Shown in pieces: positions 5,801-29,265 of a DNA stretch of 35,566 nucleotides. The position numbers and the translations under genes were made by a program. The first letter of the stretch is position 1. Every line of letters starts with the position of its first letter. The DNA is from a virus. The notes below the pieces were generated by a model that saw only the letters and a list, made by a program, of their open reading frames with translations, had not been told where the DNA came from and made no database searches. The DNA lies in the IMG/VR virus record IMGVR_UViG_3300034104_000403, positions 1 through 35,566 of that record; one strand, 5' to 3'.

Positions 5801-6200
5801 ATAACCCTCTATTAGTAGCCGAAGCACTAGGGAAATTAAAAGTATGCGTACTTGATGCACTTGATATATTAAAATCAGTACCACTTGTGCCTGTAGCAAA
5901 AGTTTGACTTAATGCCGTTAAAGTATTTAAAGTAGTTATGCCTGTGTCAGCATCCGTACTATTTACCCATTGCGTACCATTGTACTTTAATACCTGACCA
6001 TTTGCAGGACTTGTTAAAGTTACATCACCTAATTGTGTTAAATTATAATCGCCTTCAGCAGATACTATTGCGCCTACCCTTCCAAATACAGAATAAACCG
6101 CATTAGGAAAAGGATATGCACCTGTAGGTGCTTCAATCGTTATAACTTCTTCAGTTACGTTTATATCTATTATTTCCTCTGTTACGTTAATATCTGCCAT
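2868..6200 (-). CDS. Long tail fibre protein with three internal repeats (1110 aa)
   Basis: The 1110-residue protein is rich in Thr, Ser, Asn and Gly throughout, as expected for a trimeric beta-structured fibre. The N-terminus (DINVTEEIIDINVTEE, repeated) may attach to the virion. A module of about 120 residues occurs three times, near residues 372-493, 727-847 and 847-968. Each has the pattern QSDVT...AAAFTLS...GAGS.ITTQ.G, then NYGFRGSIP and NRWNLYMDGTA.NY.AG. The C-terminus (about the last 55 residues) has GFLPPRMTTTQKLAI and AGLMVYDTTLNQ, a common end of Bacteroidota phage fibres. It starts on the stop of the 122-residue gene (position 6200). Host binding is the likely role; receptor specificity cannot be read. 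Confidence 0.85.
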   Translation of the reverse strand: MADINVTEEIIDINVTEEVITIEAPTGAYPFPNAVYSVFGRVGAIVSAEGDYNLTQLGDVTLTSPANGQVLKYNGTQWVNSTDADTGITTLNTLTALSQTFATGTSGTDFNISSASSTHTFNFPSASATNRGLLTSADWSNFNTAYNDSITSAAVTGTTTKTLTLNQQDGGTITASWTDINTDAVTSVFGRTGAVTAQSGDYTTTQVTEGTNLYFTDARARAAITLTTTGTSGAATYSGGTLNIPQYQGVLTNPVTGTGTTNTLPKFTGTSAIGNSNITDTGSLITLGSTSYVNGNLAVGSNATASGTLHVQRTTDGNMAIFRGTSNAQLILSISSSNLTYDSSNGGAHHVFQTNGTERFRIDSNGGIGIGSTSLSGFNLRISKNLTGAVNAFSLYQDTTIQSDVTAHAQIFRSDPSTAASAFTLSQLSHFNTNGSTLGAGSSITTQNGYFVGSNFIQGTNNYGFRGSIPSGTNRWNLYMDGTAANYLAGDTSIGTTTGGYKLNVNGTTNLNGLLTGTNTVFSSTVANGNTIAWFDNNNTTTDQSFGLLVDAGTSVNDYALRVRNAAASELFKIAGNGAATFSSSVTAASFIPTSSTIPTNGMYLSGTNTLGFATNSTLDMVLNEAGTLGLGLTPASNWGRTGFEIGVSGASITREVRDLVLLSNSIWTSSGLVYAATAGAGRFDVGVSGFRWYTAPSGTGGNAITFTQAMTLTSAGSLGIGTTNLPGQQNLRVSRNISGSTIAVGILNEGITQSDVTNFSIMYTSTAQTAAAAFTLSNMVHYYAQQAALGAGSAITTQSGFWAESNLIGATNNYGFRGSIPAAANRWNIYMDGTANNYMAGSLGIGSTSLSNRTLHIGKTITGGTVAFAVLSNGVVQSDVTSQANNFTSVLTTAAAAFSLPTYYHFIASQGTIGSTSAVTNQYGFAVENTLIGATNNFGFWGNIPSGTNRWNLYMAGTAANYMAGNLRIGTTTTDGTSLLEVAGNVNFNGSGSRTVSITRDSGSTLQLQSSVTATGSFIFTSTNGPLNLGANNTNNFVTITTSGQLGVNSTSPNASARLQVDSTTQGFLPPRMTTTQKLAIGTPAAGLMVYDTTLNQMSYFNGTLWINF

Positions 6201-6568
6201 TAGATTTTAGTTATATCTTCTTGAACAAAAAAAGTACCCCAAACATATGTTTTCACTTCGCCACTAGGAAAAGCTACGTTCATATCATATAAATAGCTTC
6301 CTGCAGCAATAGTTACTTGCTTGTTTAAAGTAATTTGATTGTTATTAACACCACCAATAGTAATTGAACTATCAGCGGTTGACAAAGTCAAATCAATAGC
6401 TGAAGCATTAGCAGTCTTTCTTACCTGAATAGTAATCGTACTACCTGATAGATTTACTGCAACATTATTTGCACTAATAGCAAATACCTGCGCCCAAGTA
6501 TCGTTTCTCCATATTTGGACATTATATTGTGCAGGTCTTAAATCTGCAGTTGTTGTTGAACAAGACAT
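6200..6568 (-). CDS. Small beta-rich tail or baseplate protein
   Basis: The 122-residue protein has alternating hydrophobic and polar residues typical of a beta sandwich, including ITIQVRKTANASAIDLTLST and a C-terminal YVWGTFFVQEDITKI. This resembles small domains used as fibre connectors or upper baseplate proteins, without a confident family. It is placed between two fibre-related genes and shares its stop with the start of the long fibre gene. Confidence 0.6.
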   Translation of the reverse strand: MSCSTTTADLRPAQYNVQIWRNDTWAQVFAISANNVAVNLSGSTITIQVRKTANASAIDLTLSTADSSITIGGVNNNQITLNKQVTIAAGSYLYDMNVAFPSGEVKTYVWGTFFVQEDITKI

Positions 6569-12182: not shown

Positions 12183-12701
12183 TTATCCTGCAGTTGTAAG
12201 AGCAGCAGCAACTGTGCTATTTACTTCAGGTGCTAATGCAGGTTCTGCACCTGTAAAAGTCAAAGTGTAACCACTTCTATCACCTTCAGCAGTACCTGAT
12301 GTTGCATTTCCTGCAGTCAAATCTAATGCTCTAGTTTTACCTAAGTAGAAAAACTTACCATTATTATCTTTTGCAACTGCTACAAGTCTATTCTGTGCCA
12401 ATAACAAGATTTCATTTCTTGTATTTGCTTGTAGCTTATTTAAAATTATTGTTAATTCAGGTGTGAAAAACAAAGTACCATTTTGAACATTTGATGCTAC
12501 ATTCTCTGTAAACATAGATGTTCCTTTTGTTAATTCGTATTTATAGAATCTTTTACCTGCAGCCTTTGTTAAAGCAGTAATTACACCACTAGCTTCGGTA
12601 GTAGAAGTTACATCTGAACTTGCAATAAAATAAACTTCCGTAATACCACCTAGTGAATCACGGCAATCTAAGGTATATCCTTGTGTTAATGCGCACGGCA
12701 T
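12183..12701 (-). CDS. Probable major tail tube protein
   Basis: The 172-residue protein starts MPCALTQGYTLDCRDSLGG, then ITEVYFIASS, a pattern I know from Bacteroidota phage tail tube proteins. Later come LTIILNKLQANTRNEILLLA and an Ala/Thr-rich end. Length is typical for tail tube subunits. It lies right after the capsid gene and ahead of a strong terminator, which fits a high-copy structural product. Two internal Cys residues near the N-terminus are typical of this group. Confidence 0.65.
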   Translation of the reverse strand: MPCALTQGYTLDCRDSLGGITEVYFIASSDVTSTTEASGVITALTKAAGKRFYKYELTKGTSMFTENVASNVQNGTLFFTPELTIILNKLQANTRNEILLLAQNRLVAVAKDNNGKFFYLGKTRALDLTAGNATSGTAEGDRSGYTLTFTGAEPALAPEVNSTVAAALTTAG

Positions 12702-14326: not shown

Positions 14327-14370
14327 AAATATTTTAATATAAATATTAAATATGTGGATATGTTATCACT

Positions 14371-14461
14371 TAACCGCTTATCCTTATTATTTACCGTTCA
14401 TCATATTCTTTAAAAAAAGTCCCCAAATGTTTGGAAAGTGTACAGAACCTGTGTATATTTG
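14371..14461 (+). promoter_or_regulatory. Promoter module A: paired 12-mers plus TTG/TAnnTTTG promoter
   Basis: On the plus strand the 12-mer TTACCGTTCATC lies at 14391-14402, and a degenerate copy, TAACCGCTTATC, lies exactly 20 bp upstream at 14371-14382. Downstream are TTG at 14431-14433 and TATATTTG at 14454-14461, 20 bp apart, a full match to the Bacteroidota vegetative promoter. The gap from the proximal repeat to TTG is 28 bp. The module faces the plus-strand island; the first start codon is at 14499. The spacer shares TTGGAAAGTGTA with module C. Confidence 0.85.
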
Positions 14462-14498
14462 TTATGTCATTGAGAGAGAGCCAACAAAAACTAGAAAT

Positions 14499-14600
14499 AT
14501 GAACCACAAAATTTTGCCACCACCATTAGAAATTAAATTGTTCCTTTATTTTATAGGAGCAGCTATTATTAGTGTTTTAATCCAATTATTAATCAAATAA
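14499..14600 (+). CDS. Small single-pass membrane peptide, first gene of the plus-strand island
   Basis: The 33-residue peptide starts MNHKILPPPLEIK, then has a hydrophobic helix LFLYFIGAAIISVLIQLLI and a final Lys. The frame is open further upstream to 14352, but the promoter at 14431-14461 lies inside that stretch, so the ATG at 14499 is the sensible start. It ends nine bases before the next gene. It could be a superinfection, membrane-stress or anchoring peptide; nothing in the sequence decides. Confidence 0.6.
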   Translation: MNHKILPPPLEIKLFLYFIGAAIISVLIQLLIK

Positions 14601-14609
14601 ATATAGACT

Positions 14610-15185
14610 ATGAAAAATCTAATTGAAAAGTATGAAAGTTTAGGATTCCACCTTTCTGTAAAAAATGAACCAATGTTTGTAGGGTACTGTACTAAGAAAG
14701 TTAGTAAAGCAAGATTCCCTAAGGCTTTATTCAACTACAGATTCAGAAGTGCTGAAAGAATGGCTGAATTCTGTAAGGAATGGATTGAAAGAGTAGAAGC
14801 TAACATTAATTCTGTGAAGCAACTAAAAGAGCAAAAGAAGATTGCTCAACAGAATATGAATCACAATTTTAAAGTTGGTCAGGTTATTTACAACAGTTGG
14901 GGTTACGACCAAACTAACATTAACTTCTATCAGGTTATTGAATCTAAAGAAAAATCAATAATTTTGAGAGAAATCGCTAGTAGTTACGTTGCAGGGTCTG
15001 AAGGTTTTATGTCTGCTCGTGTTAAGCCTGTTGAAAATGCTTTTATTGGTGAACCAATCTTAAAAAAGGTTGTTGTTTCAGTTGGTTACAATGGGAATGT
15101 TAGTTACTACATTAAAGCAAAACACGGTTGCTTCTGCGAATATGCTGCGAATGAAGAAGGTGTTTACAGTAGTTGGTATGCTTAA
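14610..15185 (+). CDS. Unknown phage protein with an SWGYDQTN motif (191 aa)
   Basis: The N-terminal half (about residues 1-85) is basic and helical. The second half begins near residue 88 with FKVGQVIYNSWGYDQTNINF, followed by YQVIESKEKSIILREI. I recall this SWGYDQTN module from small phage and plasmid proteins of unknown role. The end has CFCEYAANEEGVYSSWYA. The gene is the middle one of the plus-strand island and its end overlaps or abuts the hydrolase gene. No catalytic motif or membrane segment is visible. Confidence 0.75.
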   Translation: MKNLIEKYESLGFHLSVKNEPMFVGYCTKKVSKARFPKALFNYRFRSAERMAEFCKEWIERVEANINSVKQLKEQKKIAQQNMNHNFKVGQVIYNSWGYDQTNINFYQVIESKEKSIILREIASSYVAGSEGFMSARVKPVENAFIGEPILKKVVVSVGYNGNVSYYIKAKHGCFCEYAANEEGVYSSWYA

Positions 15186-15195
15186 TCAAATTAAA

Positions 15196-15720
15196 ATGAA
15201 TAAAATAAAATATAACTCACTTGCTCTTGCTGCTGAATACCACAAGTATCAGCAGTATGGGGTTAAGCCTTACTTATACCATTTACTAAATGTATGGTAT
15301 GAAGCAGAAAAGTTCTGTAATGAAAACAATATCAAAGGAATTAAATTAGATATAATCCTGTCTGTGTGTGCATTGCACGATACTTTAGAAGATACTGCAT
15401 TAGATGAAAATAAAATCAAGCTAATACACAAAGAAGTTTTTAATAGTGTTAAGCTACTGACTAAGAAGCCACCTTTAAACAGGTACTATATTGAAATTGC
15501 TAAAAATGAAATAGCATCTATAGTTAAACTGTGTGATAGAATATGCAATGTCAGAGAATGTATTAAGAACAGAGACTACCGTAAATTAAAAAAGTATATA
15601 AATGAATCTAATAAATTCAAGATTATATACTCTAAATTTAACAAGCCATTATCTAATAAATTAGAAAGACTTTATTTAAAAGGAAAATTGATTAGTAGCT
15701 TTCGTATTCCTCTTTGCTAA
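15196..15720 (+). CDS. SpoT/MESH1-like HD-domain (p)ppGpp hydrolase
   Basis: The 174-residue protein carries the HD hydrolase pattern of small alarmone hydrolases: PYLYH (His29), ALHDTLEDT (His61, Asp62, Glu65, Asp66) and VKLCDRICN (Asp114, Asn118). All metal-binding and catalytic positions known from SpoT and MESH1 appear present, and there is no synthetase or regulatory domain. It should remove the 3' pyrophosphate from ppGpp-type nucleotides in the cytoplasm. I chose ATG 15196; ATG 15178 is possible and would overlap the upstream stop. Its 3' end overlaps the opposing 72-residue gene by 29 bases. The convergent neighbour beyond it is a head protease carrying a RelA-like domain, so it may act as an antidote, or may damp the host stringent response. 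Confidence 0.85.
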   Translation: MNKIKYNSLALAAEYHKYQQYGVKPYLYHLLNVWYEAEKFCNENNIKGIKLDIILSVCALHDTLEDTALDENKIKLIHKEVFNSVKLLTKKPPLNRYYIEIAKNEIASIVKLCDRICNVRECIKNRDYRKLKKYINESNKFKIIYSKFNKPLSNKLERLYLKGKLISSFRIPLC

Positions 15721-22950: not shown

Positions 22951-23223
22951 CTATCTTACCTTTTTTATCTGCTCATTATCGTAATCTGTTTTAGCTTTTA
23001 GATATGCTAGTATGTTTAAACATTCTATTGTACTTAATTCATAGGCTTCGCTAACTGTGCAATTTTCGTACTCGGCAATAAGTTTGGTGCTATATTGCCA
23101 TCCAAAATACTGCATAAACTTTGAACCACCTCTTTCGCCTGTGCTTCCTGCATCCCTGCTTCCACCATCTTCTTCACCAAATAACCCTTTGAAACTTCTA
23201 TCCAATTTCTGTATACTTGATAA
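22951..23223 (-). CDS. -1 frame extension of the tail-assembly protein (90 codons)
   Basis: If ribosomes slip one base back on the T9 run at 23230-23222, translation continues with TTA at 23223 and runs 90 codons to the stop at 22951. That gives a 251-residue fusion (161 zero-frame residues plus 90). The added part is Gly/Ser-rich at first (GEEDGGSRDAGSTGERGG) and then has FMQYFGWQYSTKLIAEYENC and LNILAYLKAKTDYD, a pattern typical of the T-part of gpG-gpGT tail assembly chaperones. No independent ATG precedes it; only TTG at 23205 is available, which supports frameshift expression. Confidence 0.7.
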   Translation of the reverse strand, partial: LSSIQKLDRSFKGLFGEEDGGSRDAGSTGERGGSKFMQYFGWQYSTKLIAEYENCTVSEAYELSTIECLNILAYLKAKTDYDNEQIKKVR

Positions 23224-23705
23224 AAAAAAACCAACGAATGATAAACATCTACGAACTTTGCAGTCAACATATCATTTGAGTATTCCTCGTGCATACTAGC
23301 ATCATACTTTTCATTAAACCAAATACCGAATTTTCGCTTCTGTGGTATTACCATAGTAGCTGCTAATTTATGCAGGTTACCATACAGGTCTTCACTAAAT
23401 ACCTTACTTTCTATATACCTAGCAAATGGCATCTTACTGACATCGTAATTAATCTTGTACCTCTTACTATTGGATATGCGTATATGCTTCTTAGGTGTGC
23501 CTTCTATCGGTTCATTCAAGAAAGCTATGGTTTTACTCAACTCTTTATATTCATTCAAAGGTAGACTGTCTATTTGCATTTCAGTCATATTGTTGACTAT
23601 CCCTACTAATTTGACTTCTAGGTCTAAATCAGTTGCATCCTTCTCCTTTGTATTTAAAGCACTGTAAATCTGTTGGTATTGCCATACGTTTATTTTGTCC
23701 CACAT
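23034..23705 (-). CDS. Tail assembly chaperone-like protein with slippery site
   Basis: The 223-residue zero-frame product starts MWDKINVWQYQQIY and is mostly helical, with no membrane segment. Codons 159-161 are GTT TTT TTT within T9, a perfect X-XXY-YYZ slippery heptamer (T TTT TTT). The -1 frame stays open downstream, exactly as in tail assembly chaperone genes, where a short and a long form are made in fixed ratio. In most siphoviruses this gene directly precedes the tape measure gene; here three other tail genes lie between them. The start overlaps the 42-residue membrane peptide gene. Confidence 0.72.
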   Translation of the reverse strand: MWDKINVWQYQQIYSALNTKEKDATDLDLEVKLVGIVNNMTEMQIDSLPLNEYKELSKTIAFLNEPIEGTPKKHIRISNSKRYKINYDVSKMPFARYIESKVFSEDLYGNLHKLAATMVIPQKRKFGIWFNEKYDASMHEEYSNDMLTAKFVDVYHSLVFFYQVYRNWIEVSKGYLVKKMVEAGMQEAQAKEVVQSLCSILDGNIAPNLLPSTKIAQLAKPMN

Positions 23706-23818
23706 AGCTGCTTGATTTTAGATAAAGATACTGCAATTATATATACTAAACAAGCTAATGGAACTGAAATAATTGTAAACTTTAATAGTTCATATGTAAA
23801 TGTTAATGCTTCTTTCAT
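23690..23818 (-). CDS. Small membrane peptide overlapping the tail chaperone start (42 aa)
   Basis: ATG at 23818-23816 opens 42 codons, ending in TAA at 23690-23692, inside the start of the tail chaperone gene. A single hydrophobic segment, LLKFTIISVPLACLVYIIAV, occupies residues 11-30, followed by a basic end. It follows the large hairpin at 23831-23902. Overlap with a structural gene suggests that translation is coupled. Role unknown. Confidence 0.5.
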   Translation of the reverse strand: MKEALTFTYELLKFTIISVPLACLVYIIAVSLSKIKQLCGTK

Positions 23819-23830
23819 TGTGTTTGTTTT

Positions 23831-24858: not shown

Positions 24859-26010
24859 TTACATCATAGAATACCTGCCATTACCCCTTTTCATATTGAA
24901 ATTATTCCAAGCCAAAGCCAATGCCATAACGCAGTCATCGTGAAAGCCTGATGGTGCAGAGTACCTAACCCCATTAGATGTGAACTGATATTCAAAGACC
25001 TGTAGTTCATTTGTGATTGCGCCTTCAGGGAATCCTATCTTTTGTTGTTGTATTGCAGTTGCAAGACCCTCCATAAGTTGCTGCTTACTTGAACTCGTGA
25101 ATTTCAGACCTTCTATTGCAATGCCTTCCCTTTGCAAGTCTTCTAGGATAGGGTCTCCTACACCTGTACTATCTACCAATATAGGGCATTTAGGCAGCCT
25201 TTTTATATTCTCCTTAGTATTATGCCAATCCATTTGATACCTGTCAAAATAAGCCACATTCCCATTATTATCTAACCCTATTATAACTGTATGGTCAACA
25301 GACTTTGCAAGGTCAATACCAAATGCAACTATTTGTTGGTTGCTAATTGGCTTGATACAATCCTGTATAAATTTATTCCCAAATGGGTTTGCGCTATTCT
25401 CTGAAGGGTTAGCCATATATTCCTGCTCAAACACTACGTTTGGCAGTTGCATCCTAGCTTCATCAATTTCTTTTGGGTCTATGAATGGGTTATCATAGCT
25501 AGTGAATTTAAAGGATGCCCAATCCTGTTCACCATCTTTCATAAACAGGCTATAGAAATAGTTTTTCCCTCTAGGGGTAGATAGGAATACTGCCTTCCCT
25601 TTATAGTCAGTTAGGGTTGGTCTAATACTATTTTGCCATCCTGCTTCTAGGTCAGGTATAAAGGATGCTTCATCTACAATAACCAAATGGAACTTTCTAC
25701 CTCTTAGATTATCTAATCTTTCACCTGTGAAAAATTCTACCTGTCCGCCATTAGGGAAGTCTATTTTTAAATCAGACTTGTTTTTAGGCAATTCTAGGGA
25801 TTCTGTCAGCTTACTGAAGAAAACCTTCGCTAATCCATAAGTAGGGGTTATATAAGCAACAGAAAGACCTTTAACGGCATATGTAACAGAAAGTACCTGT
25901 GATAGTTCTGATTTACCAAATCTACGACCACACATCACTACCCTGAATCTTTTTTCACATTCTAGGATTTTTTCTTGATTACAATGTGGTGTTGGTAATT
26001 CTATGCGCAT
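24859..26010 (-). CDS. terL: Terminase large subunit
   Basis: The 383-residue packaging motor has the ATPase motifs CGRRFGKS (Walker A, residues 27-34), LVIVDEAS (Walker B, Asp113-Glu114) and STP (coupling motif, Ser144-Thr145). The C-terminal RNase H-like nuclease has Asp233 (GIDLAK), Asp280 (VDSTG) and Asp358/Asp359 (HDD). Both domains look intact, so it should translocate DNA into proheads and cut it. It shares base 26010 with the small subunit gene. The stop abuts the repeats of promoter module C. Confidence 0.95.
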   Translation of the reverse strand: MRIELPTPHCNQEKILECEKRFRVVMCGRRFGKSELSQVLSVTYAVKGLSVAYITPTYGLAKVFFSKLTESLELPKNKSDLKIDFPNGGQVEFFTGERLDNLRGRKFHLVIVDEASFIPDLEAGWQNSIRPTLTDYKGKAVFLSTPRGKNYFYSLFMKDGEQDWASFKFTSYDNPFIDPKEIDEARMQLPNVVFEQEYMANPSENSANPFGNKFIQDCIKPISNQQIVAFGIDLAKSVDHTVIIGLDNNGNVAYFDRYQMDWHNTKENIKRLPKCPILVDSTGVGDPILEDLQREGIAIEGLKFTSSSKQQLMEGLATAIQQQKIGFPEGAITNELQVFEYQFTSNGVRYSAPSGFHDDCVMALALAWNNFNMKRGNGRYSMM

Positions 26011-27277: not shown

Positions 27278-27696
27278 TACTTATCTATTTGCTTTAGCTT
27301 ATTTATTGCCCATTCAATGCCTGAAGTACCACCCCAAGCATCCCACATTAACCCACCACATCCTTCAGAGTATGGTACATCTTTACTTTGTTGATGCCTT
27401 TTAAATGATGCCATCCTAGCTATGGTATCCCTAGATATGTTTTCTTTATTCGCTAATTGGTTTGCCCTAGCTTTACCTACTGCAGTTCCACAATCACCCC
27501 AACCATTTTCTTCTGCCCATTTTAATGCCCTCTTTGCATTGTTACTAGCTGATTCAGGATAGTCATTATAAGTTTCTTCATATTTACCACTAGCTATAAT
27601 TGCTGCCCATACTTTAGCAGCTTTTTCTTCTGTGTCATATATGCAACTACCTGTACCTATTCTGTACTTACCATTGCTACATTTGTATATCGGCAT
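27277..27696 (-). CDS. Conserved-type phage protein with an EENGWGDCGT motif (139 aa)
   Basis: The 139-residue protein has two parts. The first (about 1-35) is MPIYKCSNGKYRIGTGSCIY, a short basic unit common in phage proteins. The second (about 45-139) has ALKWAEENGWGDCGTAVGKA, then RANQLANKENIS, FKRHQQSKD, and CGGLMWDAWGG with a final helix. I know that second part from phage proteins, where it can be fused to prohead proteases or portal-related proteins, but its role is unknown to me. The start overlaps the stop region of the glycosyltransferase gene. Confidence 0.65.
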   Translation of the reverse strand: MPIYKCSNGKYRIGTGSCIYDTEEKAAKVWAAIIASGKYEETYNDYPESASNNAKRALKWAEENGWGDCGTAVGKARANQLANKENISRDTIARMASFKRHQQSKDVPYSEGCGGLMWDAWGGTSGIEWAINKLKQIDK

Positions 27697-28687
27697 TACC
27701 TATCAATTTATTATAAATAGCAAATCTTTTATTATTTATGGTGTGCAGGTTAAAGTTAGTATTGCAGTAATCAAATAGCTTCTGCCCATATTCAATCCTA
27801 GCTGCTTTATCAAATGTCAGTAGCTTAATCCATTTGTACCAATCCTGTTGATTGTTTACATAGCATACAGGCATATTCTTATAAGGGTGTACGTTGCTAA
27901 CTATAGCAGGGTTTTTCTTTGCTGCAGTCTCTAATACCTTTAGGTTTGATTTCATAGCACCGAACTTATTTTCTACCAATGGGATTATACTTATATCAGA
28001 ATCAGCATAAGCACCCATATAATTACTAACATCTGCATAGTCATAGATAGTTGGATTCAGCTTTAATCCGTTTGTAAATACTCCAATCATTCTATCCCAT
28101 AAATGTTTTTCCCCAAGATTATAACCTGCAATAACCGTTCTTACAGGGAAGTTAATTTTTTTCATTGGATTCCTAAGAATATCTAAGTCAGGAACGTGAG
28201 TACCTGAACCTGCCCAAAATAATCTAACCAAATCAGATTCTAATTTATTATCCTGAAATTGTTCCTCACCATATGGTAAAGCATTAGGAATTATTTCTAC
28301 ATTAGGATTTAACTTATATATTTCTTCAGCCAATCTTTCGTGCGTACAGGTGCATAGGTCTGCCACCTTCATATACTCTGTAATGATTTCAGCAATATTA
28401 CTTTCTCTATATCTTTGTGCAAGAACGTGTGAAGGTGGTAAAACCCAATAGTCATCATTATCTACTATCAGTTTGAAGTTATATTTTATCTTCATCTTTA
28501 CTAATAGTTTAGCATCTGTTGAAGCTAAGAATCTATTAAATAAAACTATGTCATAGTTATTATCAAATACTGCCTCATTGATTGTATCTGTTATCAAACA
28601 ATAGTCTTTGCGCATATTGACTAATGGCATCATTATTCTATGATAACCAACCCCACTAAATTTGTTTGTAATTGCTAGTATTCTCAT
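27677..28687 (-). CDS. Glycosyltransferase, GT-B fold type
   Basis: The 336-residue protein begins MRILAITNKFSGVGYHRIMM and has LFNRFL, DNDDYW and NVEIIPNALPYG in the first half. In the second half come FWAGSGTHVPDLDIL and KSNLKVLETAAKKNPAIVSN, the usual donor-sugar site region of GT4-like enzymes. It should transfer a sugar from a nucleotide donor to an unknown acceptor. It overlaps the GT2-like gene by four bases (28684-28687), so the two probably work in one pathway with the acyltransferase upstream. Confidence 0.78.
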   Translation of the reverse strand: MRILAITNKFSGVGYHRIMMPLVNMRKDYCLITDTINEAVFDNNYDIVLFNRFLASTDAKLLVKMKIKYNFKLIVDNDDYWVLPPSHVLAQRYRESNIAEIITEYMKVADLCTCTHERLAEEIYKLNPNVEIIPNALPYGEEQFQDNKLESDLVRLFWAGSGTHVPDLDILRNPMKKINFPVRTVIAGYNLGEKHLWDRMIGVFTNGLKLNPTIYDYADVSNYMGAYADSDISIIPLVENKFGAMKSNLKVLETAAKKNPAIVSNVHPYKNMPVCYVNNQQDWYKWIKLLTFDKAARIEYGQKLFDYCNTNFNLHTINNKRFAIYNKLIGNADIQM

Positions 28688-29265
28688 AAAGGAATATAAT
28701 ATGCTTTAGTTCCATTTGAATAATCAGATACATTTTTATTATGCAACTCCCAAGTCTTTTTAACTAAATCCATTTTATTATATCCATAAACATCACTACC
28801 ATTCTGTTCAATATGGGTAGCTTTAGTCAATGGGATGAACTTTGTATGTAATCCTGATGCCCTGCATCTAGTACAGTAGTCTAAGTCTATTGCTCCATAT
28901 GGGTCTAATTCTTCATTAAATGCGCCTAGTCTATTTATTGTTTCTTTTGATATTGTAAAATTACCAATCAAATCTAATGAATCACCATTGAAGCCATCTA
29001 AAGGAATTGAGCATATGCCAATCGTTTTATCCTGCATAAATTCATTTCTAGTTACTAGCCAATTGTCAGGCTCTAGTATATCATTGCCCATTATCGTAAC
29101 ATAGTCAAAATTGTTTAATTGCATCAATCCTTTATTGATTGCATAAGCTATGCCTGTTTCATCTATAATGCTAATTAAGTCTATATGCTTACCTGCATTT
29201 TTAATGTTATGAAACAAAGTTTCAATGTTTCTACTTTGATAGTTTAAATATATTACTGCGTTCAT
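28684..29265 (-). CDS. Glycosyltransferase, GT2 (GT-A) type
   Basis: The 193-residue protein has YVTIMGNDILEPDNW (Gly60-Asn61-Asp62, in the place of the usual DxD) and LGAFNEELDPYGAIDLDYCTR (near 113-133), followed by His151. That is the GT2 catalytic layout. It is short, consistent with a compact GT-A domain without membrane segments. It overlaps both neighbours by four bases, the acyltransferase upstream and the GT-B enzyme downstream. Confidence 0.78.
   Translation of the reverse strand: MNAVIYLNYQSRNIETLFHNIKNAGKHIDLISIIDETGIAYAINKGLMQLNNFDYVTIMGNDILEPDNWLVTRNEFMQDKTIGICSIPLDGFNGDSLDLIGNFTISKETINRLGAFNEELDPYGAIDLDYCTRCRASGLHTKFIPLTKATHIEQNGSDVYGYNKMDLVKKTWELHNKNVSDYSNGTKAYYIPL

Follow-up and report, generated by a model that had tools for sequence, protein, structure and literature searches.

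A putative lambda-type tail assembly chaperone gene recoded at a run of nine T's in relatives of Nonlabens phage P12024S

Introduction

Does a run of nine T's inside a phage gene give rise to two proteins, and are these the two forms of a tail assembly chaperone encoded far from the tape measure gene? The question was raised by an original prediction, made from the letters of a viral DNA, of a programmed -1 frameshift in a tail-assembly gene. The DNA analyzed, here called the window, is a stretch of 35,566 nucleotides that comprises positions 1 to 35,566 of the IMG/VR record IMGVR_UViG_3300034104_000403. In the usual synteny, the G/GT chaperone gene is flanked by the genes for the tube protein and the tape measure protein. 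The gpG/gpGT tail assembly chaperone of lambda was reportedly the subject of work by Xu, Hendrix and Duda in 2004, and the slippery heptamer of lambda differs from the T9 run considered here.

Results

The recoding site and its chance expectation

The T9 run lies inside a gene of 223 codons that is read on the minus strand from 23705 to 23034 (Table 1). At the run the codons are GTT TTT TTT TAT, encoding V159, F160, F161, and Y162, and the -1 frame that starts at 23223 stays open for 90 codons, as far as 22951. The predicted -1 fusion has 161 + 90 = 251 residues, and the shift point lies 62 codons ahead of the zero-frame stop. The coordinates, the phase, the length of the open -1 frame, and the size of the fusion given in the original prediction all hold, and the letters of the FMQYFGWQYSTKLIAEYE end that it quoted as typical of gpGT proteins are present in the translation of the -1 frame.

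Table 1. Coordinates of the recoded gene, its parts, and the neighboring genes in the window.
Feature	Position	Strand	Basis or remark
Terminase large subunit gene, upstream landmark	24859..26010	-	phrog_2, E 1.6e-46; no detectable similarity to P12024S gp37
Zero-frame gene, gpG-like, 223 aa	23034..23705	-	Residues 1-161 common to both predicted products; 162-223 form the zero-frame-only C-terminus
T9 run, recoding site	23222..23230	-	Sequence; T9 or T10 counts in relatives
Slippery heptamer T_TTT_TTT, codons 160-161	23223..23229	-	Phase; conservation of the F160 and F161 codons
Weak hairpin GAAAUU-N7-AGUUUC, 12 nt past the T-run	23191..23209	-	Consensus about -3.3 kcal/mol; covariation term about 0
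Stretch read in the zero frame and the -1 frame, about 62 codons	23034..23222	-	Codon-position entropy
-1 frame extension, gpT-like, 90 codons plus stop	22951..23223	-	Conserved GW...CLN.L.Y.K.K domain
Tail completion/neck-like gene, 222 aa	22196..22864	-	Homologue of P12024S gp42
Structural gene, 408 aa	20992..22218	-	Homologue of P12024S gp44; tail tip/distal tail is a guess
Structural gene, 687 aa	18929..20992	-	Weak homologue of P12024S gp45, blastp only
Tape measure protein gene, 565 aa	17232..18929	-	phrog_3336 tape measure, E 3.8e-13; TM segment at 157-175
Probable major tail protein (tube) gene, 172 aa, adjoining the capsid gene	12183..12701	-	P12024S gp03 homologue; appearance and position only

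The run by itself proves little, because GTTTTTTTT arises with a probability of about 0.23 given V-F-F and is therefore unremarkable. It is nevertheless the sole A/T run of at least 9 in the window, against about 4 expected under a first-order model. Among the 51 in-frame heptamers of the XXXYYYZ type in the 25 genes scanned, only the T9 site has a -1 frame that is open for more than 23 codons. When the zero-frame protein was held fixed and codons were drawn by the phage's own usage, the simulated -1 frame stayed open in 0.0002 of 20,000 draws. Taken with the comparisons below, these results indicate that the recoding site is more than chance and is no assembly error. The weight of evidence, as we read the sequences, is in the open, conserved -1 frame and in its invariance across relatives, and not in the letters of the run.

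Conservation of the site in relatives

Three IMG/VR scans for the window clade gave 166 loci, many of which are repeat fetches of the same contigs; two of the scans contributed the best 80 of 224 and the best 80 of 101 matches. Together with the window these make 167 sequences, three of which (L043, L045, and L048) end ahead of the site. The other 164, the window among them, all have the T-run in phase: T9 in 161 and T10 in 3, in which codon 159 is TTT. Of the first 46 run-bearing sequences, 41 are uncut, and in all of these the open -1 frame measures 90 codons; loci of greater divergence have 90-91. When the -1 frame is followed upstream past the run, stops interrupt it in 14 of the 15 loci inspected, and the fifteenth (L160) shows 11 residues only. 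F160 and F161 are both TTT in 83/83 unique sequences; F151 is TTC in 11/83. An alignment of 30 zero-frame proteins has only five invariant residues, and three of these are F160, F161, and Y162.

A cultured member of the group was reached through the protease and portal of the window, which matched Nonlabens phage P12024S. In P12024S, gp38 and gp39 are annotated as two separate hypothetical genes directly after the terminase gene, spanning 23136-23830 of the record (L168), which contains no joined gene. Positions 23578-23586, within gp38, form a T9 run that is phased as in the window (L FF Y); from it an open -1 frame of 81 codons leads through the annotated gp39. On this comparison, a T9 recoding site appears to link gp38 with gp39. 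The gp38 protein is a distant homologue of the zero-frame gene of the window: phmmer matched the two with an E-value of 1e-4 against a set of 21 proteins, hhalign aligned gp38 with the window clade as far as FFY (E 5.6e-4, with a probability of only 30%), and the zero-frame model of the window matched the gp38 fold in BFVD (E 1.3e-7). The PHROG matched by gp38 itself was also matched by 3 of 16 window-clade members (best E 1.4e-4). The -1 domain of P12024S, compared by itself with that of the window clade, had no detectable similarity to it (hhalign probability 0.6%).

A scan starting from gp38 yielded 63 loci of 25-99% identity, and the run was in phase in 63/63 (T9 in 62, T10 in L180); the 59 uncut loci have -1 frames of 80-92 codons. 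One of the six seeds contained FFYH, which favors Phe-Phe-Tyr, and its back-translation allows TTC. As a test of this bias, two further scans were seeded from the -1 domain only, with a profile that begins about 13 codons past the run, or from the part of the zero-frame protein before the site only, and the seeds exclude the run. They returned at least 575 and at least 577 relatives, respectively, among 600 stretches, and the best 80 of each were analyzed; these two sets overlap in contigs with each other and with the earlier sets. The run was in phase in 80/80 loci from the -1-domain scan (T9 in 58, T10 in 22), with -1 frames of 82-87 codons. In the zero-frame scan it was in phase in 77/77 (T9 in 72, T10 in 5), the other 3 loci ending before the site, and in 73 of the 77 the locus includes the end of the -1 frame, reached after 82-87 codons. 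Neither a run shorter than 9 nor a single-frame fusion was present among the best 80 of either scan. The run length is 9 or 10, never less, in all four sets. Homologues lacking the slippery run, which the original prediction had named as grounds against it, were looked for in the four sets, and none was found among the sequences that reach the site.

Searches of annotated genomes added few relatives. A tblastn search of annotated phages with the zero-frame protein and the tape measure protein of the window found no close relative, and one with gp38 and three divergent zero-frame proteins found the P12024S and P12024L records; gp38 also gave one match to a Xanthomonas phage, with an E-value of 0.8. 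Two scans of host genome contigs found no relative and thus no prophage pointing to a host. From P12024S, we infer that the host belongs to the Bacteroidota. The P12024 genome announcement is cited in PMC4615864.

Dual coding

The variation across codon positions shows, at the level of the alignments, that both frames are under selection. For the 81 unique window-clade sequences that span the whole stretch, the entropy at positions 1/2/3 of the zero-frame codons is 0.64/0.46/1.31 bits upstream of the run and 0.46/0.52/0.47 bits in the overlap. Downstream of the overlap it is 0.33/1.09/0.36 bits, the high value being that of the third position of the -1 frame. To judge from these alignments, the pattern is characteristic of a single reading frame that gives way to two overlapping ones and then to the second frame alone. 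The P12024S-type group has 0.31/0.27/0.63 bits upstream compared with 0.02/0.14/0.10 bits in the overlap, calculated from the 23 (of 42 unique sequences) whose frames are equally long, with 92 codons in the -1 frame. Programmed -1 recoding at the T9 run is strongly supported by these comparisons, that is, by the run being in phase wherever the site is reached in all four sets and by the dual-coding signature. The predicted programmed -1 frameshift stood as recoding in this general sense, and its ribosomal part did not find the same support.

Ribosome or polymerase

The heptamer has the X_XXY_YYZ form of a ribosomal frameshift site, in phase and conserved, and we lean toward the ribosome as the agent of the shift. 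An alternative that we take seriously, and hold to be possible, is transcriptional slippage, in which RNA polymerase would add one U on the T9 run and normal translation would then yield the -1 protein. By the sequence, an extra U and a -1 ribosomal shift give identical residues (V F F L S S...), so mass spectrometry is unable to tell the two routes apart.

A T9 run and no conserved stimulator are almost as compatible with slippage by the polymerase as with a ribosomal frameshift. All sequences that have the site contain an A/T homopolymer of at least 9, the lengths never fall below this in any of the four sets, and the run is alone of its kind in an A/T-rich window. The polymerase of bacteria slips on runs of 9 A or T, according to PMC5009743. 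The same source ranks U_UUU_UUU far below A_AAA_AAG in shift-proneness for E. coli ribosomes, which makes it a poor ribosomal shift site in E. coli (PMC5009743). The length of the run must be read with care, however. Codon 159 is GTT, CTT, ATT, or TTT and encodes a hydrophobic residue, and this codon, together with Tyr162 and the Leu of the -1 frame, can explain the two T's that lie outside the heptamer. Length 9 is therefore weak evidence and does not decide the mechanism. Polymerase slippage is also disfavored by precedent since, to our knowledge, all cases of recoding in phage tail chaperone genes are ribosomal.

A scan for a downstream stimulatory RNA structure, proposed with the original prediction, gave no conserved stimulator in the window clade or the P12024S-type group. 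It found one weak hairpin, in the window clade only (Table 1), which is conserved without covariation and may be a by-product of dual coding. In the 44 unique sequences of the P12024S-type group there was no conserved structure (consensus about -0.4 kcal/mol). No Shine-Dalgarno-like stretch was seen by eye to be conserved in the 13-20 nt upstream of the run. A strong fold that is specific to the window and includes the T-run (z -4.0) was rejected as a stimulator because it is not common to the relatives.

Gene order and neighbors

Matches to PHROGs indicate that the window genome encodes tape measure, portal, terminase, and tail genes. The recoded gene comes soon after the terminase gene and stands apart from the tape measure gene and the tube-like gene, whose starts are about 4.1 kb and about 10.3 kb downstream of it; the usual chaperone position between these two genes is not what the window has. 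The earlier statement that three large tail genes intervene is roughly right, in that genes of 222, 408, and 687 aa precede the 565-aa tape-measure-like gene. This 565-aa protein matches P12024S gp49 with a phmmer score of 17.0 and a bias of 19.0, a large composition bias, and gp49 itself matches the tape measure family phrog_58 (E 2.2e-4). P12024S gp42, the homologue of the 222-aa protein, matches the tail completion/Neck1 family phrog_5 (E 4e-4).

The order of the P12024S homologues is gp38/39, gp42, gp44, gp45, gp49, and then, across the ends of the record, gp01, gp02, gp03, gp06, and gp08. This P12024S-type (Inhavirus) order is found in the window as chaperone, completion, gp44, gp45, tape measure, protease, capsid, tube-like, portal, and gp08. 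The comparison was confined to 21 proteins and used phmmer together with blastp, the latter run uncorrected for composition, which makes the E-values optimistic; phmmer pairs cover the order as far as the protease, and the gp45 pair comes from blastp only. In the same 21-protein comparison, the terminase, gp05, and gp41 had no convincing partner. Among 18 metagenomic records, the tape measure gene was located in 16, and it lies 4.05-4.17 kb past the recoded gene in 14 of them, 6.5 kb past it in one, and past it in one only if the record ends are joined. The tube-like gene is on the same strand in 18/18 records, 8.1-11.0 kb past the recoded gene in 13 and downstream of it in the other 5 only if the ends are joined. 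Across these records, the unusual order is a property of the whole phage group and not a peculiarity of the window genome. The prediction that the tail gene order is rearranged, with the chaperone gene far from the tape measure gene, is thus supported, and the order is common to P12024S and its relatives.

Several other features of these genomes were recorded. P12024S gp03 (L168 2149-2694) and gp09 (5953-6552) both match phrog_19091, making two copies of a tube-like gene. In the window, the second half (about residues 230-410) of the product of the protease gene at 15937-17211 matches a head morphogenesis PHROG, and a RelA_SpoT match fell below the cut-off. The 660-aa portal at 9666-11648 matches the P12024S portal in two pieces (4-401 and 564-659) with about 160 extra residues between them. 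Plus-strand ORFs occupy 14352-15720, within the minus-strand structural block, between the protease gene and a 201-aa pre-capsid gene. Upstream of the packaging genes, at 27677-29265, are two adjacent genes with glycosyltransferase PHROG matches (E 1.6e-61 and 5.4e-5).

Family and fold searches and the likely function

Family libraries did not name the recoded gene. Its matches in PHROGs were all of unknown function (best E 0.0046), PHROG 2452 was matched in one of four records, and there was no Pfam match above the cut-off. Neither the model of the zero-frame product nor that of the -1 part had a convincing structure match in the PDB, where the best rows for the -1 domain were histones (Z 3.6), a common helical arrangement. 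BFVD proteins labeled as tail assembly chaperones were weak matches, with E-values of 0.38 and 0.93 to the zero-frame model and 1.3 to the -1 part.

Tail assembly chaperone function is most likely by analogy, on the basis of architecture and context. Our estimate is roughly 0.8 for the reading that a lambda G/GT-type tail assembly chaperone is encoded here and recoded at the T9 run. The predicted label of a tail-assembly gene is accordingly probable from architecture and context, but no family library or solved structure names it. The missing family and fold names, together with a position not adjacent to the tape measure gene, would also suit a real recoding event in some other tail or head protein. 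This is improbable, given a core to which -1 recoding supplies an alternative end of about 90 residues at the sole such site in 25 genes, and given neighbors that are tail genes; in addition, none of the 20 window sequences searched in PHROGs was named a tail assembly chaperone, which leaves no competing candidate among them.

If the locus is such a chaperone gene, most products would end at the zero-frame stop as a gpG-like protein of 223 aa. What we infer to be a minority would switch to the -1 frame at T_TTT_TTT and end 90 codons on as a gpGT-like protein of 251 aa. By analogy with lambda, the 161 shared residues would serve for binding to the tape measure protein and the -1 part for recruitment of the tube protein, and both forms would leave before the tail is completed.

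Two predicted products with alternative ends

The shift sits 62 codons before the zero-frame stop in the window and, for this reason, the C-termini are alternatives. The zero-frame tail past the shift has 25 codons in P12024S and 16-84 in the complete gp38-related members. Comparison of the relatives indicates that the predicted products carry different C-termini, both of which are conserved. The AlphaFold model of the zero-frame product (mean pLDDT 83.7) has a long helix at 151-182 across the shift point and then a helix at 187-200. The model of the -1 part (mean pLDDT 76.4) has helices at 34-53 and 65-89 after a short helix and a disordered linker. According to these models, the two products would swap one helical end for another.

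A BFVD protein of 243 aa from an uncultured Caudovirales phage, A0A6J7WJY4, matches both the zero-frame model (E 5.9e-7) and the -1 model (E 5.4e-4); in this uncharacterized protein a single reading frame may hold both parts. The zero-frame model also weakly matches Flavobacterium phage 6H (E 2.8e-3), and the hit was taken by equal length to be gp10 (L232 10352-10927, 191 aa), which ends ...CFFYSTR at a T_TTT_TTC. A W-containing stretch of the -1 frame of gp10 is open further on. It was rejected as a case of the same scheme, its -1 frame stopping one codon after T_TTT_TTC.

The -1 part might instead be a separate overlapping gene, translated from its own internal start with no change of frame. 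Candidate starts exist, since -1 codon 7 is TTG in 79/81 unique sequences and codon 37 is ATG in 65/81, and P12024S gp39 was annotated on its own. Neither start is universal, however, with CTG at codon 7 in 2 sequences and no ATG at codon 37 in 16/81. The -1 reading is conserved from the run itself onward, with LS at its start, in both the window clade and the P12024S-type group, and an internal start would leave the intact T-run unexplained. We consider separate genes very improbable. A homopolymer sequencing or assembly error, or a decaying gene whose true single frame is the -1 frame, is refuted for practical purposes: although homopolymers are error-prone and the -1 tail resembles a normal protein end, a cultured phage and the assemblies of many samples carry the same run, the zero-frame tail shows conservation of its own, and both frames constrain the overlap.

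Discussion

With the locus read as a recoded tail assembly chaperone gene, the gpG/gpGT class would gain a protein family that has no functional name in the libraries searched. Its lineage is known mostly from metagenomes, with more than 570 matches in each of two scans, and P12024S is a cultured member. Annotation that looks for the chaperone gene next to the tape measure gene, or for a shift close to where the zero frame stops, will miss such genes, and the two hypotheticals gp38 and gp39 of P12024S are an example. Among the matches listed in a literature search of partial coverage, no title or abstract opening described this frameshift in P12024S or its relatives.

The two C-termini bear on how work is divided between the G and GT forms, and the T9 run raises the question of whether polymerase or ribosome slippage sets the ratio of the products. 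The gpG/gpGT class is already known, and interest in the locus would rise if polymerase were the agent. A bolder and, in our judgment, doubtful picture would combine these points: a large P12024S-related lineage, mostly known from metagenomes, would produce both chaperone forms through slippage of RNA polymerase at an invariant stretch of 9-10 T's rather than through a ribosomal frameshift, swapping folded C-termini over about 16-84 dual-read codons, from a gene uncoupled from the tape measure and tube genes.

Three known systems can be compared with the locus. In Shigella mxiE/spa33 and Citrobacter tssM1, polymerase slippage is described as shown by experiment (PMC5009743 and PMC4256274). As would be the case in the window, an A/T homopolymer leads there to two forms of one secretion or tail-like assembly protein. 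The difference is that polymerase slippage was demonstrated experimentally in those genes, whereas in the window the shift may occur at either level, transcription or translation.

The lambda gene provides the architectural analogy. As set out in PMC5009743, gpG and gpGT come from one gene through a -1 shift at a slippery run and have a shared N-terminal part, to which gpGT adds a -1-encoded C-terminal domain; the same source gives both proteins as absent from virions (PMC5009743). In lambda and, by sequence comparison only, in the window, a -1 site joins a G-like frame to an overlapping T-like frame. The window gene differs in its T9 slippery run and in a shift that precedes the zero-frame stop by 62 codons, unlike that of lambda near the 3' end, which makes the C-termini of the window alternatives. 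It also lies about 4.1 kb before the tape measure gene, with the tube-like gene farther on, and the lambda proteins have no detectable sequence or fold match to it.

Cultured P12024S, an Inhavirus, differs from the window in a zero-frame tail of just 25 codons, a -1 domain that is only loosely alike, and a longer tape measure protein (686 aa). The window has no counterpart of gp41 and gp46-gp48 at the corresponding place, and no similarity between the terminases was detected. The two phages agree in the distant homology of the zero-frame proteins, a T9 run in the same phase, and a gene order that is largely collinear.
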